Of a stretch of DNA of 59,465 nucleotides, positions 40,454-59,465 are shown piece by piece (the stretch's first letter is position 1; every line of letters starts with the position of its first letter). Below the pieces are notes generated by a model, which was not told the origin of the DNA, searched no databases, and saw only the letters and a list, made by a program, of their open reading frames with translations. The DNA is from Enorma phocaeensis (GTDB taxonomy: Bacteria > Actinomycetota > Coriobacteriia > Coriobacteriales > Coriobacteriaceae). Made by a program: the position numbers and the translations under genes. Location: the NCBI RefSeq assembly GCF_016901575.1, contig NZ_JACJKQ010000013.1:1-59465 (forward strand), in the 5' to 3' direction.

Positions 40454-40653
40454 CCCGTCCTCCCAAGGCCCGAAGCAGGCCTGCGGCAAAACGCCCGCCT
40501 GCCAAGGCCCTCGCCAAAAAACTCCCGCCAGTATACCTGCGCCGGCCAAGCAGCGGGACGTGCCCGCGGGCGGGCGCCCCAACGTTTCAGCTACGTTTCT
40601 CAAACGGGCGCCCCCGCGCGGCACGCCGACGCTGTGCTACGGTAAAGCGACTT

Positions 40654-40810
40654 GATAGAGGCGCGGGGAAGAAGACCCGCGGGCGAGCCGGCAGGTGCAG
40701 ACCCCGCGGCGAGGCGACTCCGCCGAACTCGGTCGCCCGGGCGCGGGGGCCGGGTGGGTCCGTGGGAAACACCCGCGGGACTGTCTGCAAGAACCTGCAG
40801 GAGCGCTATC
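40654..40810 (+). promoter_or_regulatory. Lysine riboswitch (L-box) upstream of lysA
   Basis: The leader matches the L-box. GATAGAGGCGC (40654-40664) pairs with GCGCTATC (40803-40810) as helix P1. Between them lie a CCGCCGAA core block (40720-40727), a P5-like hairpin GTCC-GTGGG-AAACA-CCCGC-GGAC, and the conserved CTGTC...AAGA segment. It is unusually GC-rich. P1 ends eight bases before the AAGGAG of lysA, so control of ribosome access is likely. Lysine binding would close P1. The rest of the 374-base gap 40454-40653 shows no further feature. Confidence 0.85.
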
Positions 40811-40827
40811 AGCCAAGGAGATTGCCC

Positions 40828-53206: not shown

Positions 53207-54193
53207 ATGGCATCTCGATATACCGACCAGCAGCGGACCCGTGTCGTGGACCGCAAGAAGCTCGAGCGCCACGCCCGTACGAGCGCATCCATCGGCGACA
53301 CGCAGGCCATCGCACCAAAACCCAAGCTCCTTGAGGGCATTTCGGTCGCACAGCTCATCGCCGGCGCCGCCGCGGCGGCGACCTCGATGGTGCTTGCCTC
53401 AGAGATCGGCATCGCGGGATCGGTCATCGGCGCCGCGGTGAGCTCCGTCGTGACGGTCATCGCGTCTCAGCTGTACCGCAACTTCCTTTCGGCGGGAGCA
53501 CGAAAGGTCAAAAGCGGACTGGGCGACCTGCCCCGGCCGGGACGCCCGGGCTCGTCCGACGCGGCGACGGCCGCGCAGGCCACCTATTCGCAGGAGCGGG
53601 CGCGGGTCGCCCGCGTGGCGCCCGCGAAGCTTCAGGCGCGCGCGGCGGCAGAGCGCAACGCCACGCAGCGCAAAGTGATCATCTTCTCGGTGGTCATCGC
53701 CGCCGTGATGGTCATCGCCTGCACGGCAGCCATCCTCATCGGAACCGCCGGCGAGGGCATCGGCACCAAGACGGAGCCCCTCATCCCCCGCTCGACCTCG
53801 TCTCAACAAACAGACGACAGCGCCTCGTCTCAGACGCAGGCGAACGCGCTCGCCAGCGTCCCCGACGGGCCCGCCGCCGGCGCTGACGATGCGGAGGATG
53901 CCGGCGACGCGAGCGGCGACGCCGCCACGGGCGGAACCGCCTCGAACGGAGGGGGCGCCACCGACACCGAAAGCGGAACAGGGTCTGGCACCTCGAGCAA
54001 CGGAGGCGGAACCACCGGTGGCTCCACCGACGCCGGCGACACAGAAGGAGCTGCCGGATCGAACACGGGCGCGGGCACCGGCTCGGGCTCGGGAAGCACG
54101 GGGTCTGGCTCCGGCACCGATTCCCCCACCGGGCAGGGGTCGGGGACAGGCACCGATACGAGCGGCGCAGCCGGCGCCTCAAATGGCCAATAA
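53207..54193 (+). CDS. Membrane protein with long Gly/Ser/Thr-rich tail
   Basis: A 328-residue protein of no recognised family. A basic N-terminus (1-44) leads to a hydrophobic hairpin at about 48-89 (small-residue rich, possibly two helices), a basic cytoplasmic-type region (90-152), a clear helix at about 153-178 (KVIIFSVVIAAVMVIACTAA), and a 140-residue tail of Gly, Ser, Thr and Asp. The tail probably lies outside the membrane. ATG 53207 has GGGAGGA upstream. It precedes the Asp/Tyr-repeat protein of the VTC cluster with a promoter between, so a shared surface role is likely but unproved. Confidence 0.75.
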   Translation: MASRYTDQQRTRVVDRKKLERHARTSASIGDTQAIAPKPKLLEGISVAQLIAGAAAAATSMVLASEIGIAGSVIGAAVSSVVTVIASQLYRNFLSAGARKVKSGLGDLPRPGRPGSSDAATAAQATYSQERARVARVAPAKLQARAAAERNATQRKVIIFSVVIAAVMVIACTAAILIGTAGEGIGTKTEPLIPRSTSSQQTDDSASSQTQANALASVPDGPAAGADDAEDAGDASGDAATGGTASNGGGATDTESGTGSGTSSNGGGTTGGSTDAGDTEGAAGSNTGAGTGSGSGSTGSGSGTDSPTGQGSGTGTDTSGAAGASNGQ

Positions 54194-54268: not shown

Positions 54269-54370
54269 GAGGCGGCTGCCCCTTGGTAGGACGACCGACT
54301 TCCTGAGCAAGGGAGCCTTTCGTTGGGGATATCCCTGCGAAAACGCCTAGTCGACCGAGGGGTGAACAAC

Positions 54371-55234
54371 ATGACGAACAAGCAACTTACGATCGTGCTC
54401 GCCACGCTGCTCGCTGTAGTCGTTGGCGGCGGAGTCCTCTTTACCGTCTGGGGAGGCACGCAGACGCCGGCGAACGACCCTGTCGCCACAGCGACCGAAC
54501 CAGACCTTCCCTATCCCGAAGGCGGCGGCACCCTTATCCTTCGCGTGAACCCGGAATTCGCCATCCACTATGACGCGAACGGCGTCGTCGTGGGCGCCGA
54601 GGCGCAAAACACAGACGCCAAGAACATGGGCATCGACCTCTCGTCGCTCGAGGGCCAGGAATGCCGTGCCGCGGTCTCCACCTTGATCGCGCGCATCAAT
54701 GAGGCAGGCTATTTCGTGGAAGACGTCGAGGGCGAGGGCAACACCATCGACCTTGAAGTGGAGAACGGCTCTTCCCTGCCGGCAAACGACTTCCTCAAAA
54801 ACATCGTGAGCGACTCCCAGGCGTATGTCATCGGGCAGAACAAGACCGCGACCATGCAGGTCACGGGCTCGAGCAACTATGGCTGGACCAACTACAGCGA
54901 CTCGGACTATGGTCCCGACAACGACGGCGTCACCGACTATAACGACTCCGATTACGGCCCGCTGAACGACGGGGTCACCGACTACCAGGAGCCTGCTCCG
55001 GCGGCGCAGCCTGCAGCCCCGACCGGCGGCGCCGCGGCGGGAACCGGCGGCACTGCAGGCGGCGCATCGGGAGCCTCGTCCACTGGCGGCTCTGCTGCCC
55101 CCGCCCCTGCGCCGTCGGGAGGCAACTCCAATTACGGCAACACGAACTATGGCGGCAACAGCGGCTATAGCAACTCGGGATACGACAGCGGCAACTCGGG
55201 ATATGATGGTGGCAACTCGGGCTATGACGACTGA
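54371..55234 (+). CDS. Membrane-anchored protein with RsgI-like domain and Asp/Tyr repeats
   Basis: A 287-residue protein. One helix lies at about 6-27, followed by a domain (52-160) with LILRVNPEFAIHYDANGVVV and AVSTLIARINEAGYF, resembling the extracytoplasmic part of RsgI-type anti-sigma proteins. A tandem repeat of 15-16 residues at about 175-205 reads NYSDSDYGPDNDGVTD and then YNDSDYGPLNDGVTDY; the DNDGVTD pattern recalls calcium-binding repeats. The C-terminus is Gly/Asn/Tyr-rich (NSGY-type units). ATG 54371 has GAGGGGTG; the reading from 54323 lacks a site. Its stop overlaps the VTC start (TGATG), so they are coupled. The anti-sigma role is unlikely, as no sigma-binding domain is present. 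Confidence 0.8.
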   Translation: MTNKQLTIVLATLLAVVVGGGVLFTVWGGTQTPANDPVATATEPDLPYPEGGGTLILRVNPEFAIHYDANGVVVGAEAQNTDAKNMGIDLSSLEGQECRAAVSTLIARINEAGYFVEDVEGEGNTIDLEVENGSSLPANDFLKNIVSDSQAYVIGQNKTATMQVTGSSNYGWTNYSDSDYGPDNDGVTDYNDSDYGPLNDGVTDYQEPAPAAQPAAPTGGAAAGTGGTAGGASGASSTGGSAAPAPAPSGGNSNYGNTNYGGNSGYSNSGYDSGNSGYDGGNSGYDD

Positions 55235-55992
55235 TGTCCCCGATGAGCGCCAAGCAGCGACATGAGCTCAAATACGAGATCTCGCCACACGACGCCTTCG
55301 TGCTCTCACAACGTCTCGGCATGCTCTTCCCTCGGGACGGGCATGCCGGGCCCGACGGCCGCTATGTTGTGCGCAGCCTCTATTTCGACACGCCCTTCGA
55401 TGATGCCCTGAGGGAGAAAAGCGAAGGGTTCACCGCGCGGGCGAAGTGGCGCCTGCGCACGTACGGGACCGCAAAGATCGAGGAGCACGAACCGGGACGC
55501 ACCGTGCGTCTGGAGAAGAAGGTCAAGCGCGACGGGGCCGGCTCGAAGCACGCCGCCTGGATCACCCCATCGGATGCGCTGAGGCTCTGCGGCAGGAATG
55601 CCCCTGCCGCGCAAGGCCCCGCCACCGGCGCCGATCGCTCGGCACCGCCCGGCGTATCCGGCGGCGATGAGAATCCGGTGCTCGCCGAATTCCGGCAGGC
55701 GAAGGTCGTCCACGGCCTACGACCGTGCGTCGTGGTCGCCTACGAACGCGAGGCATTTCTATGTGCACCGGGAAACGTGCGCGTCACCATCGATTCCCGT
55801 CTGCGCTCGAGCCCCCATCCCGCGAGCTTCTTCGACCCCGCCCGACTACTCACGCCCTATGCGCCCGACACGGTTGTCCTGGAGGTGAAATTCGACGACT
55901 TCCTCCCCGACGTCGTGCGCGATGCCGTGCGCGTGCCCAGCGCCGTCAGGACGGCTCATTCCAAATATGCGCTCGGCCGCCGTTTTGAGTAG
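55234..55992 (+). CDS. VTC-domain (polyphosphate polymerase-like) protein
   Basis: A 252-residue VTC-domain protein. The family's basic tunnel residues are visible in ELKYEISPHDAFVL, VVRSLYFDTPFDDALRE, KWRLRTYGTAKIEE, VRLEKKVKRDG, VVAYEREAFL and VTIDSRLR, with the acidic metal-type VLEVKFDDFLPD. In yeast Vtc4 this fold makes polyphosphate from ATP; a bacterial function is only proposed. A Pro/Ala-rich insert lies around residues 125-150. It is followed by DUF4956 and CotH genes, a recurring trio in bacteria. Confidence 0.88.
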   Translation: MSPMSAKQRHELKYEISPHDAFVLSQRLGMLFPRDGHAGPDGRYVVRSLYFDTPFDDALREKSEGFTARAKWRLRTYGTAKIEEHEPGRTVRLEKKVKRDGAGSKHAAWITPSDALRLCGRNAPAAQGPATGADRSAPPGVSGGDENPVLAEFRQAKVVHGLRPCVVVAYEREAFLCAPGNVRVTIDSRLRSSPHPASFFDPARLLTPYAPDTVVLEVKFDDFLPDVVRDAVRVPSAVRTAHSKYALGRRFE

Positions 55993-56080
55993 CCGCCTAC
56001 GCGCGGGCACGACCCTGCCCCGCCCTCGATTCGCCTCCCCAGAGGCGCCAAGCCCCAACCACCCGACGTAAGGCACCCAC

Positions 56081-56776
56081 ATGACGTTCAACGACATCTT
56101 CAAGTCCTCGTTTCTCGACCGCATCGACGCCGTCCCGCCGCTCGACGCCGCCATCGCGCTCGCCCTCGCCTGCGCCCTCGGCCTCTTCATCGTGCTGATC
56201 TATAAGAAGACCAGCACCAACGTCATGCATTCGACAAGCTTCGAGGCCACGCTCGTCGCGCTCACCCTCATCACCACGCTGGTGATCTTGGCCGTGTCGA
56301 GCAACGTGCTGCTGTCGCTCGGCATGGTGGGCGCGCTTTCGATCGTGCGCTTCCGGACGCCCGTGAAAGAGCCGATGGACATCGTCTTTTTGTTCTGGTG
56401 CATCGCGGTGGGAATCGTGCTCGCGGCGGGCCTGCTGTTCCTCGCCGTAACCGGCTGCATCGTTATCGGAATCGTGCTGCTCGTCTTTGCCAACACCCGG
56501 ACGATGGACCGCCCGTTCATGCTCGTGGTGCGCTGCTCAGGAGACTCCGTCGACGTGGCAGAGCAGGCCATCTCCTCGCTTGTCGCATCAAATACCAAGG
56601 CACACGTCCTCAAGGCGAAGAGCCGCAGCGCCGCCGGCGCCGACCAAGGCGTGCTCGATCTGACCTACGAGGTGCGGCTCAAGGACGGCGAGACCGCCTT
56701 CGTGGCTGCCGTATGCGCCATCGAGGGGGTCACCGACGCCAACCTCGTCTCATACAACGGCGACTATCTGGGATAG
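56081..56776 (+). CDS. DUF4956 membrane protein
   Basis: A 231-residue protein with about four membrane helices (26-42, 56-75, 79-95 region and 105-135) and a soluble C-terminal domain of about 95 residues. The signature block NVLLSLGMVGALSIVRFRTP, then VKEPMDIVFLFW, is typical of DUF4956. Relatives usually lie beside VTC and CotH genes, as here. ATG 56081 has AAGG upstream. Its stop is six bases from the CotH start. The function is unknown; the C-terminal domain may sense or regulate the VTC enzyme. Confidence 0.88.
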   Translation: MTFNDIFKSSFLDRIDAVPPLDAAIALALACALGLFIVLIYKKTSTNVMHSTSFEATLVALTLITTLVILAVSSNVLLSLGMVGALSIVRFRTPVKEPMDIVFLFWCIAVGIVLAAGLLFLAVTGCIVIGIVLLVFANTRTMDRPFMLVVRCSGDSVDVAEQAISSLVASNTKAHVLKAKSRSAAGADQGVLDLTYEVRLKDGETAFVAAVCAIEGVTDANLVSYNGDYLG

Positions 56777-56782
56777 GCGACC

Positions 56783-58183
56783 ATGCTCGGCAAGCGCTCC
56801 ATAGACGCGGCGTGCATCGCGGCCATCCTTGTCGCCGTGCTTCTCACCTCGGCCTTCGCCTGGGCCGGATCTTTGGGACTCATCGAGGCAGATCGGAACG
56901 ACGCCTATCTCGACCTTCTGTTTGAGCCCGACCGCGTGCACAGCATCGACATTCGGATAGACGACTGGCAGGCGTTTCTGGCCTCTGCCCCCGCCGAAAC
57001 CTATATGCGCTGCGCCGTCGCGGTCGACGGCGAGGAGCTGTCCGACGTCGGCCTGCGTGCCAAGGGCAACAACTCCCTCTCCCACCTGAGCGCGCGCGGG
57101 CTCACCCGCTACAGCCTGAAGATCGAGTTCGACCACTACCGGGACGGGCAGACGTACCACGGCCTCGACAAGCTCTCGCTCGACGCCGCCTTTCAGGACA
57201 ACAGCTATCTCAAGACCTACCTCGCCTTCGACATGATGCGCTTCATGGGTGTTCCCACCCCTGCGACCAGCTTCGTCCAGGTGAGCGTCAACGGCGAGGC
57301 ATGGGGCCTCTACCTCGCCATCGAGGAGCCCGAGGACGCCTTTGCCGAGCGCGTCTGGGGCGAGGGCCACGGCCTGCTGTACAAACCGGACTACCGCTCC
57401 CTCGATGATGAGAACGCGGACGTGGCCCTGCGCTACCTCGGAGACGACCCCGCATCATACCCGGGCATCTTCGAGCGGGCACGCTTCGAGGCATCCCCTG
57501 CCGACGAGGCGCGGCTCATCGAGGCGCTCAGGCTGCTCGACGCAGGCGACCGCGCCTCAATCGAGGCCGCGGTGGATGTCGAGGAGGTCTTGCGCTACTT
57601 TGCGGTTCAGACGTTCGTCGTGAACCTCGACAGCTACCTGGGGCGCACGGGCCACAACTACCTGCTCTATGAGGAGGATGGACGCATCTCGCTGGCACCT
57701 TGGGATTACAACCTCGCGTTTGGCACCTACGCGCTCGGCCGCCCCGAGCTGCCCGACGACGCGACGACCGCCGTAAACCTTCCCATAGACACCCCCGCCG
57801 CAACCGAGGTGCTTGCCCGCCGTCCGCTCTTTTCCAAGCTCATGGCGCACGAGGCATGCCTCTCCGCCTACCACGACAACCTGGGCTACCTGGTCGCCGG
57901 ATACGTCGAGCGCGGCAGGCTCCAACAGACCCTGCAGGATGCCGCGGAGCTGATTGCCCCCTATGTGGAGACCGACGCAACGAGATACATCACCTATGAA
58001 GAGTTCCTGCAGGGCGTGGACACGCTTGAAGCGTTCTGCCTGCTTCGCGCCGAAAGCGTGCGCGGACAGCTCGAGGGGAACATACCTTGCACCAACGAAG
58101 GGCAGCTGAGCGCACCTGATGCCCTGGTGGACGCCTCGTCCATCCGAATCGAGGACCTCGGAGAGCTCTCCGACCTAGATTAG
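56783..58183 (+). CDS. CotH-family protein kinase-like, membrane-anchored
   Basis: A 466-residue protein. One N-terminal helix (9-29) is followed by an outside CotH domain with AKGNNSLSHLSARG, TRYSLKIEFDHY, YHGLDKLSLDAAFQDNSYLK and the kinase-like active-site block APWDYNLAFG (about 304-313), whose Asp is the metal ligand of CotH. CotH kinases phosphorylate spore-coat proteins in Bacillus; in non-spore-formers they are membrane-bound with unknown targets. The adjacent Asp/Tyr-repeat protein is a candidate substrate, by context only. ATG 56783 has AGGCG upstream. Confidence 0.88.
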   Translation: MLGKRSIDAACIAAILVAVLLTSAFAWAGSLGLIEADRNDAYLDLLFEPDRVHSIDIRIDDWQAFLASAPAETYMRCAVAVDGEELSDVGLRAKGNNSLSHLSARGLTRYSLKIEFDHYRDGQTYHGLDKLSLDAAFQDNSYLKTYLAFDMMRFMGVPTPATSFVQVSVNGEAWGLYLAIEEPEDAFAERVWGEGHGLLYKPDYRSLDDENADVALRYLGDDPASYPGIFERARFEASPADEARLIEALRLLDAGDRASIEAAVDVEEVLRYFAVQTFVVNLDSYLGRTGHNYLLYEEDGRISLAPWDYNLAFGTYALGRPELPDDATTAVNLPIDTPAATEVLARRPLFSKLMAHEACLSAYHDNLGYLVAGYVERGRLQQTLQDAAELIAPYVETDATRYITYEEFLQGVDTLEAFCLLRAESVRGQLEGNIPCTNEGQLSAPDALVDASSIRIEDLGELSDLD

Positions 58184-58305: not shown

Positions 58306-59446
58306 ATGTCCCGTATCACGAGCAACAAACCCACCCTCACGCCCGGCAACCGGGTATACCTCTATCGCCTGCTGCGCGATGCCCTGGGATGCGGCAAGCA
58401 GACCTTTATGTCCCAGGTAGAAGAGGTGCTCGCCGCCGAAGAGCTCGGCGCAGAAGACCTCGGCTTTCCCGATACGCGAGCCCTTCTCGAAGAGCTCGGA
58501 GACTTTCTCACGCTCACGGTGTTCAAGGGCGGCCGCATCTACGCGACCGTCGTCGCCCAGCCCGCATGGGACGAGGCGCTCGCCGCCGCGGAGCGCGGCG
58601 CCGCCAAGCAGAAGGCGGGCGGGAAGTCCTGGAAGCGCAAGAAGGCGGGAAAGGACATCAAGCCCGTCCGCCCCAAGCGCGTGAAGCGTGTCGTCGAGAC
58701 GGTCGAGGCGGCCCCCGACTCCCCCGCGCCCGAGGCGGCGACTCCCGGCGAGGGTGCCGCCCCGTCCGAAGCAAACGATTCCGAAACGCTCGGTGTCGAC
58801 GCCGGCGATGCCGGCGCCGCAGGCGACCAAGGCCCGGATGTGCCCGCAGACGCCGCGGCCACCTCTGAAGGCACCGCAGACGAAGACGACAGGGAGATGC
58901 CCGCCGCCACCGATCCGGCAGATGCCGCGCCCAAACAGGGACCGGATGGCAATGGATACGTCGAGGCAAACGAGGCGTCAGAGCATGCAGACGACACGCC
59001 GGCACCCGAGGCAGCGCCCGAGCCTTCTCACCAGGACGGTCCGGCAGTCCCCGCGCCAGAACCCAGCATCAAGTTCACCATCCTCTTCGATCCCGACGAA
59101 GACGCCGATGCCCCCAAGGAAACAAGGCCGGATGCCGTCCGTGCCAAGAAAGAGGCCCCTGCAGCCACCGAGGCTGCGCCTGCGGCGGAGGCTTCCACGC
59201 CCCATGCCGGGCCGCGCCGCTCCGAGCAGGCAGCGTCGGGCGCGCCTGCTGAGGATATCCGCACCCACGATGCATCCCGCGCGCCCGCGAACGCCGATCC
59301 TTCGTCCCCCGCGCACCAGGCGACCCCCAAGAACGCGGCCCCCACGCCTGCCAGCACCGCACCCGACGCTGCGGCGCCCGAGGCGAACGATACGGCAGCA
59401 AAGGCAGCGAAGCCCGCAACGTCGCTCCAGCCCGAGGAGCCTGCCC
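58306..59446 (+). CDS. Ala/Pro/Glu-rich protein, truncated at the contig end
   Basis: The frame is open from ATG 58306 (AAGGA upstream) to the end of genuine sequence, at least 380 residues. Residues 1-100 are a compact domain (YLYRLLRDALGCGKQTFMSQ, LEELGDFLTLTVFKGGRIYA) that I do not recognise but which resembles small winged-helix-like or OST-HTH-like modules. A Lys/Arg-rich patch at about 107-125 could bind nucleic acid. The rest is disordered Ala/Pro/Glu/Asp sequence. No signal peptide. The C-terminus is missing. Confidence 0.75.
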
Positions 59447-59465
59447 CTGTCTCTTATACACATCT
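59447..59465 (+). other. Nextera transposon-end (mosaic end) adapter sequence
   Basis: The last 19 bases are CTGTCTCTTATACACATCT, identical to the Tn5 mosaic end used in Nextera library adapters. They are artificial and mark the right end of the assembled contig; the reading frame from 58306 into them is not real. Confidence 0.97.

Follow-up and report, generated by a model that had tools for sequence, protein, structure and literature searches.

Conserved linkage of an S/T-x-Y repeat protein to a CotH-type kinase, VTC and DUF4956 suggests a surface kinase-substrate module in Enorma phocaeensis and its relatives

The locus

The window examined here is a stretch of 59,465 nucleotides, a whole contig of the 2.36 Mb genome of Enorma phocaeensis. 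Near its end, positions 54371-58183 of the + strand hold an operon of four genes, all of them intact and tightly packed. In order, these encode a repeat protein (RPT), a VTC-domain enzyme, a DUF4956 membrane protein, and a CotH-type protein kinase. An earlier note on this DNA had named the cluster at this position, and its open reading frames and the Pfam domains of VTC, DUF4956 and CotH are as claimed there. The stop codon of RPT overlaps the start codon of VTC in TGATG (55232-55236); the spacing is 88 bp from VTC to DUF4956, and 6 bp from DUF4956 to CotH. The Pfam matches given below, one for each protein, all lie above cut-off. The features are:

54274..54317, + strand: leader conserved in Coriobacteriaceae, with a predicted hairpin around the conserved CGACCGAC (alignment of 8 leaders, all upstream of RPT)
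54371..55234, + strand: RPT, 287 aa, with a membrane anchor, a SEAL domain and an S/T-x-Y repeat tail (RsgI_M at 1.3e-8, alignments, structure model)
54524..54865, + strand: SEAL (RsgI_M-like) domain of RPT, with Asn60-Pro61 at 54548-54553 (alignment, model, Foldseek)
54866..55009, + strand: first repeat block, (DSDYGPxNDGVTDY)n (sequence)
55115..55231, + strand: C-terminal repeat block, (GNSGYD)n, ending GYDD (sequence; tandem repeat score 83)
55234 (or 55243)..55992, + strand: VTC-domain polyphosphate polymerase-like enzyme, cytosolic, without SPX (PF09359, 9.4e-30)
56081..56776, + strand: DUF4956 membrane protein, about 5 helices followed by an ACT-like domain similar to the C-terminal part of MgtC (PF16316, 2.8e-9)
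56783..58183, + strand: CotH-type protein kinase with an N-terminal membrane anchor (PF08757, 5.6e-59)

The repeat protein

RPT is derived from RsgI. It keeps the SEAL domain, to which an acidic repeat tail is joined, and the anti-sigma part is missing. The earlier note had called the protein RsgI-like; this is right for its central SEAL (RsgI_M) domain, but not for its N-terminus, where the membrane anchor comes first, with only about five residues ahead of it. Pfam gives no RsgI_N match in RPT. Because the anti-sigma N-terminus is lacking, RPT is not itself an RsgI. No cognate sigI adjoins it in the window. The N-terminal anchor of two relatives (L023 and L024) contains a lipobox cysteine.

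SEAL domains undergo autoproteolysis at Asn-Pro. In RPT, Asn60 and Pro61 are invariant across 32 aligned sequences, and the structure model places them in the loop joining strands 1 and 2. When compared with known structures by Foldseek, the model matches RsgI of Bacillus subtilis (8t9n, 8.5e-5) and RsgI2 of Clostridium thermocellum (8hdj, 1.1e-3). As modelled, then, RPT is a SEAL protein, having the RsgI_M fold with Asn-Pro between its first two strands. The periplasmic domain of RsgI is known to cleave itself, whereupon strand 1 separates (PMC12203970). Some Bacillota members of the RPT family have, as judged by eye from the alignment, a PepSY-like segment after the SEAL domain; in related SEAL lipoproteins that are not linked to the operon, PepSY is confirmed by Pfam.

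The tail is a genuine repeat, above chance, as had been claimed, but its description as an Asp/Tyr repeat gives way to a better one, S/T-x-Y in a context of Asp, Asn and Gly. Nearly every Tyr of the tail is preceded at position -2 by Ser or Thr; [S/T]-x-Y occurs 12 times in the window's tail, and shuffling leaves 2.4 +/- 1.4. Relatives likewise tend to end in GYDD or DYDD (46/69). In the window's genome, RPT is the only protein found to have such a tail, and the first repeat block has no second copy there.

Linkage across genomes

RPT patterns were run against 84,980 species and yielded 70 loci. These lie in Coriobacteriia, Lachnospiraceae, Oscillospiraceae, Erysipelotrichia and other groups of the Actinomycetota and Bacillota, and many come from the chicken gut. 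Linkage could be tested in the 61 loci with at least 3.2 kb after RPT. CotH follows or adjoins RPT in every one of these (61/61); VTC, DUF4956 and CotH are all present at RPT in 59, with the same gene order in 56. Thus, the proposed link of the repeat protein to the trio, which was open to refutation by its absence elsewhere, has withstood that search.

Both exceptions (L086 and L104) keep RPT and CotH together while VTC lies elsewhere in the genome, which makes CotH the tightest partner of RPT. The genome G180 also has RPT and CotH without VTC nearby. Among 120 genomes of the window's order, VTC and DUF4956 are nearly always neighbours. Some of these genomes have CotH there too, and five have RPT next to VTC.

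In a tree of CotH sequences, the RPT-linked proteins of both phyla fall into one cluster. This cluster stands apart from the strongly supported group linked to pel genes, and nearly apart from the group linked to chitin synthase. Such clustering suggests movement of the operon from one phylum to another.

The tail motif and CotH

Across the RPT family, Ser or Thr occupies position -2 of Tyr in 90% of cases (1124, against 218 +/- 13 in shuffled tails). The tails of RsgI proteins encoded nearby follow the same rule (84%; 268, against 66 +/- 7).

Motif patterns had been used to find the 70 loci. A second, independent survey therefore chose proteins for their SEAL domain, whatever their motif content. 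It covers 295 genomes of the order to which G161, an Oscillospiraceae genome, belongs, and takes as its inputs RsgI_M matches, the RPT-type CotH, and tails read from the DNA. The motif was defined strictly here, as at least two occurrences of [ST][GDNA]Y[DGE]. It is present in 26 of the 29 SEAL proteins of CotH loci. The corresponding figures are 0/8 for the SEAL proteins that these genomes encode at other places (partly members of other SEAL subfamilies), and 1/62 for those of other genomes (Fisher p of 4e-6 and 2e-18, respectively, against the CotH-linked set, to be read with the phylogenetic non-independence of the rows in mind).

Where CotH is missing, the tails take a different form. Homologous modules of sigI, rsgI and a SEAL protein without CotH (L198, L206, L218) have poly-Asp tails in which the motif is almost absent, and the same is true of 13 coriobacterial genomes without VTC. 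In Coriobacteriaceae that have the operon (G054, G149, G150, G151), the motif is borne even by RsgI and SEAL-PepSY proteins whose genes lie at a distance from CotH.

The earlier note had offered the tail as a candidate target of CotH. Since the motif in SEAL proteins is almost confined to those encoded with CotH, these sequence comparisons strongly suggest that the S/T-x-Y tail is indeed its target. As the CotH-less homologous modules have poly-Asp tails, they also suggest that a polyanionic tail is the shared end, reached either by the genome, as poly-Asp, or by modification.

The three enzymes

The CotH protein matches the structure of a CotH (5jd9, 9e-13) with its active-site aspartates aligned; its NLDSYLGRTGHNYLLY and PWDYN correspond to NFDxxxxHNYxLY and PWDYD of the Bacillus cereus protein. 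N281, D283, N292, W307 and D308 are invariant in 30 sequences. It is, by its sequence, a CotH domain with the catalytic (D283) and the metal-binding Asp in place, and kinase activity is predicted. CotH kinases are widespread outside spores, where, to our knowledge, no substrate is known; we found no paper to the contrary.

The VTC protein (252 aa) consists of the VTC domain alone, without the SPX domain and the C-terminal membrane helices that yeast Vtc4 has as its own. Its profile matches yeast Vtc4 (3g3q, 8.3e-10), while the single sequence has no real match in the PDB by phmmer. Judged by its conserved basic and acidic residues, it is a VTC tunnel domain; R69, R71, K92, K94, R168, E213 and K215 are invariant in 31 sequences. 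Any membrane part would need to be supplied by DUF4956. The latter matches the MgtC/SapB model (3.6e-4), and the best match of its structure model is the C-terminal domain of MgtC (2lqj, 4.4e-4). We know of no established role for the bacterial VTC and DUF4956 proteins, and came upon no paper that says otherwise.

The sigma-I/RsgI circuit

Most descriptions of sigma-I come from Bacilli and Clostridia. In the Bacillota loci, sigI and rsgI stand beside the operon, a circuit that the earlier note lacked and that is visible only in these relatives. Counting was done on 51 loci, those from L069 onward, beyond the first coriobacterial group, that have 2.5 kb or more of upstream sequence; sigI is found in 45 of them, and a separate full RsgI in 44. 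In one case (L111), Pfam confirms the RsgI and sigma domains, with RsgI_N slightly below cut-off. RsgI_N (PF12791) gave no match in the family; the coriobacterial RsgI proteins lie under its cut-off, and were detected with a local model.

The neighbouring RsgI usually has an S/T-x-Y tail like that of RPT. If a polyanionic tail is indeed the shared end, the tail of RsgI could make sigma-I responsive to the activity of CotH and VTC.

A de novo search found a sigma-I-type promoter, GACCCCG-N18-CGTATTCTA (-10 CGTA), upstream of sigI in 34/50 loci. The same promoter lies upstream of RPT in 43/50 (12/13 divergent, 31/37 co-directional), with about zero occurrences in shuffled sequence. Sigma-I elements have been described as CCC and an A/T tract in the -35 region and CGWA in the -10 region (PMC6056542, PMC10575876). 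The Bacillota promoters match these elements, which places the operon in the sigma-I regulon so far as promoter sequence defines it. Patterns in the style of B. subtilis (ACCCC[CA]..CGWW and CCCC..CGAA) had given zero matches, the real spacer being 18 bp and the -10 element CGTA; ACCCCG with too short a spacer also gave none.

No sigma-I-type promoter is present upstream of RPT in the window or in any Coriobacteriia locus tested, and an RPT-based profile, run against the window's genome for RsgI and SEAL relatives, finds RPT only. What the window holds is thus no more than the effector half; its genome has lost the SigI/RsgI part. The leader upstream of RPT could be a cis-regulatory RNA in place of the lost sigma-I control. 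Its folding z lies between -1.5 and -4.3 in five of six sequences, and is +0.7 in the remaining one; an Rfam search of the leader and the loci gave no family for the leader.

In Coriobacteriaceae and relatives, the loci L007-L015, L017 and L137-L143 hold modules of sigI, rsgI and a SEAL-PepSY lipoprotein with long poly-Asp (DDWDDRDD) tails.

A surface kinase-substrate module and its alternatives

The operon is probably a surface kinase-substrate module, in which CotH phosphorylates S/T-x-Y tails, those of RPT and, in Bacillota, those of RsgI, the latter closing a feedback loop to sigma-I. Gene order, linkage, the SEAL fold, sigma-I-type promoters, the restriction of the motif and the conserved active sites are the data on which this stands. 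The phosphorylation itself, the acceptor residue, the role of VTC and DUF4956, and signalling via RsgI are steps that we infer.

Here, RPT would be anchored on the outside of the membrane. Membrane-anchored CotH would phosphorylate Ser or Thr, and possibly Tyr as well, in the G-x-[S/T]-x-Y repeats of its tail, turning the tail into a dense polyanion. Fam20C recognises S-x-E, and S/T-x-Y would, by inference, be a comparable +2 rule. CotH is a distant relative of Fam20C (PMC7821199). VTC and DUF4956 would support CotH from inside the cell. Most simply, VTC would make polyphosphate with DUF4956 as its membrane partner, and the product would supply phosphate or energy across the membrane. Polyphosphate is a plausible phosphate donor, and may be exported through DUF4956. 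In Bacillota, sigma-I would drive the operon, and modification of the RsgI ectodomain would report CotH/VTC activity to sigma-I via the SEAL domain. The window's lineage would retain the effector half alone.

A bolder version joins all of these steps. VTC polyphosphate would pass through DUF4956, CotH would use it to phosphorylate S/T-x-Y tails including those of RsgI, and phosphate or energy status would thereby be read outside the cell and fed to sigma-I, with poly-Asp as a genetically fixed substitute. We regard this chain, taken whole, as speculative and rather unlikely.

Several points weigh against the kinase-substrate interpretation. Known CotH substrates are basic (Ser/Lys/Arg), whereas the tails of RPT and RsgI are acidic. 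The most constant residue of the tail is Tyr, yet CotH is a Ser/Thr kinase. In the 70-locus set, picked with motif patterns, the richness in motif is partly selected, although the linkage is not, and the cautions given with the survey apply as well. The sole motif-bearing SEAL protein of the other genomes in that survey (G401) stands at a contig start, with no detectable CotH. The motif is absent from RsgI of G180, G276 and G345 despite CotH (in G345, RsgI and CotH are on different contigs). G013 has the operon, yet its unlinked SEAL protein is poly-Asp, and in G145 RsgI has the motif without VTC. The interpretation draws on sequence and models.

The first alternative, to which we give a limited chance, is that CotH transfers polyphosphate, a nucleotide or some other group to the tails, the donor being VTC polyphosphate exported via DUF4956. 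A donor other than ATP would be understandable because there is little ATP outside the cell. The presence of VTC and DUF4956 with CotH, both in nearly all RPT loci (59/61) and in loci without RPT, would then be explained, and the nearly invariant Tyr, for which a Ser/Thr kinase does not account, would be less troubling. However, VTC and DUF4956 also occur without CotH, beside Cthe_2159-type proteins, and RPT and CotH can be separate from VTC. The DUF4956 model, moreover, has a soluble domain like that of MgtC, and does not resemble Vtc1, and the activity of bacterial VTC is here only predicted.

Somewhat less likely still, the tails are modules for binding or assembly, whose partners are divalent cations, glycans, the cell wall or each other; CotH would then be a pseudo-enzyme or act elsewhere, and the motif would have spread by exchange of tails between neighbours. 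The tails are rich in Asp, CotH-less relatives have poly-Asp, and repeat sequences may pass between neighbouring genes. CotH, VTC and DUF4956 are also found, without RPT, beside Pel exopolysaccharide genes (PMC7112168) and chitin-synthase-like genes. A dead enzyme would not, however, be expected to keep its active-site residues invariant. Exchange alone leaves the motif-free poly-Asp modules unexplained, and it does not easily put the motif on the SEAL and RsgI proteins far from CotH in G054, G149, G150 and G151.

Very improbable is a third alternative, in which the tail would bind calcium in the manner of thrombospondin type 3 or RTX repeats and build a calcium-dependent surface structure with no part for phosphorylation. 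Its repeats of 14-16 residues are rich in Asp, Asn and Gly (as in PDNDGVTDY), but no DxDxDG loop forms. Such a loop needs Asp as its first, third and fifth residue ahead of Gly; in YGPxNDG the first of these is Gly and the third varies (D/E/L/N), and the calcium-loop reading was rejected on sequence. Nor is there a loop of this type in the second block (GNSGYD), the feature common to both blocks being S/T-x-Y.

Relation to known systems

The nearest precedent for the kinase-substrate pair comes from spores of B. subtilis, where CotH is encoded beside CotB and CotG, proteins with Ser-containing repeat tails, and multiply phosphorylates their serine repeats (PMC7821199). The system described here differs in being non-spore, in its membrane-anchored acidic S/T-x-Y tails, in its coupling to VTC and DUF4956, and, in Bacillota, in its sigma-I/RsgI pair. 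The Bacillota loci resemble the SigI-RsgI systems of Bacilli and Clostridia in having sigma-I, an RsgI with an anti-sigma part and a SEAL domain, and sigma-I-type promoters. They differ in two ways: at the end of the RsgI ectodomain, an S/T-x-Y tail takes the place of the carbohydrate-binding module, and CotH is accompanied by RPT, a further SEAL protein, which has no anti-sigma domain.

The enzyme trio is already known from Gram-positive pel loci, whose accessory genes encode CotH, a polyphosphate polymerase and DUF4956, with or without DUF4832 (PMC7112168). Here, there are neither Pel genes nor DUF4832, the partner is RPT, and the pel-linked CotHs form their separate group. Also known is the neighbourhood of SigI, VTC and CotH in NELoc-2 of Clostridium perfringens, which, compared by its reported order, has SigI, a 348-aa cell-wall protein, VTC, a "tubulin/FtsZ" protein of the size of DUF4956, and CotH (PMC2879425). 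Unlike the operon here, NELoc-2 runs on into HEAT-repeat and chitin-synthase-like genes.

In the open-licence literature, no description was found of the repeat proteins, their motif, its restriction to CotH loci, or its occurrence on RsgI, nor of a coupling of CotH with RsgI. The locus offers a concrete candidate substrate motif, G-x-[S/T]-x-Y, and a concrete pair of enzyme and likely substrate in gut bacteria that can be cultured; an anti-sigma factor shares the motif. The role of non-spore CotH, and the phosphate source of an extracytoplasmic kinase, become directly testable.

Elsewhere, VTC and DUF4956 have other partners: Cthe_2159 proteins, chitin-synthase-like genes and two-component systems. 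Eight Oscillospirales loci (L254-L258, L260, L261, L263) have an alternative architecture that lacks RPT: a response regulator and a histidine kinase stand with VTC, DUF4956 and a CotH of greater length. In coriobacterial loci such as L049-L054, VTC and DUF4956 are followed by a Cthe_2159-type carbohydrate-binding protein (PF14262) that replaces CotH, often with a two-component pair. One operon of the chitin-synthase type (L028, in G018) is decaying, because its VTC and DUF4956 genes carry in-frame stops.

Other features of the window

Immediately upstream of RPT, positions 53207-54193 encode a membrane protein with a long low-complexity tail of Gly, Ser, Thr and Asp; it has no significant Pfam family, and is not beside RPT in the other genomes of the order surveyed. 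The contig terminus (59447-59465) is CTGTCTCTTATACACATCT, a Nextera transposase end, and the last open reading frame (58306-59463) is thus cut by an adapter artefact. A lysine riboswitch lies at 40648-40816 (RF00168, 62.7 bits).

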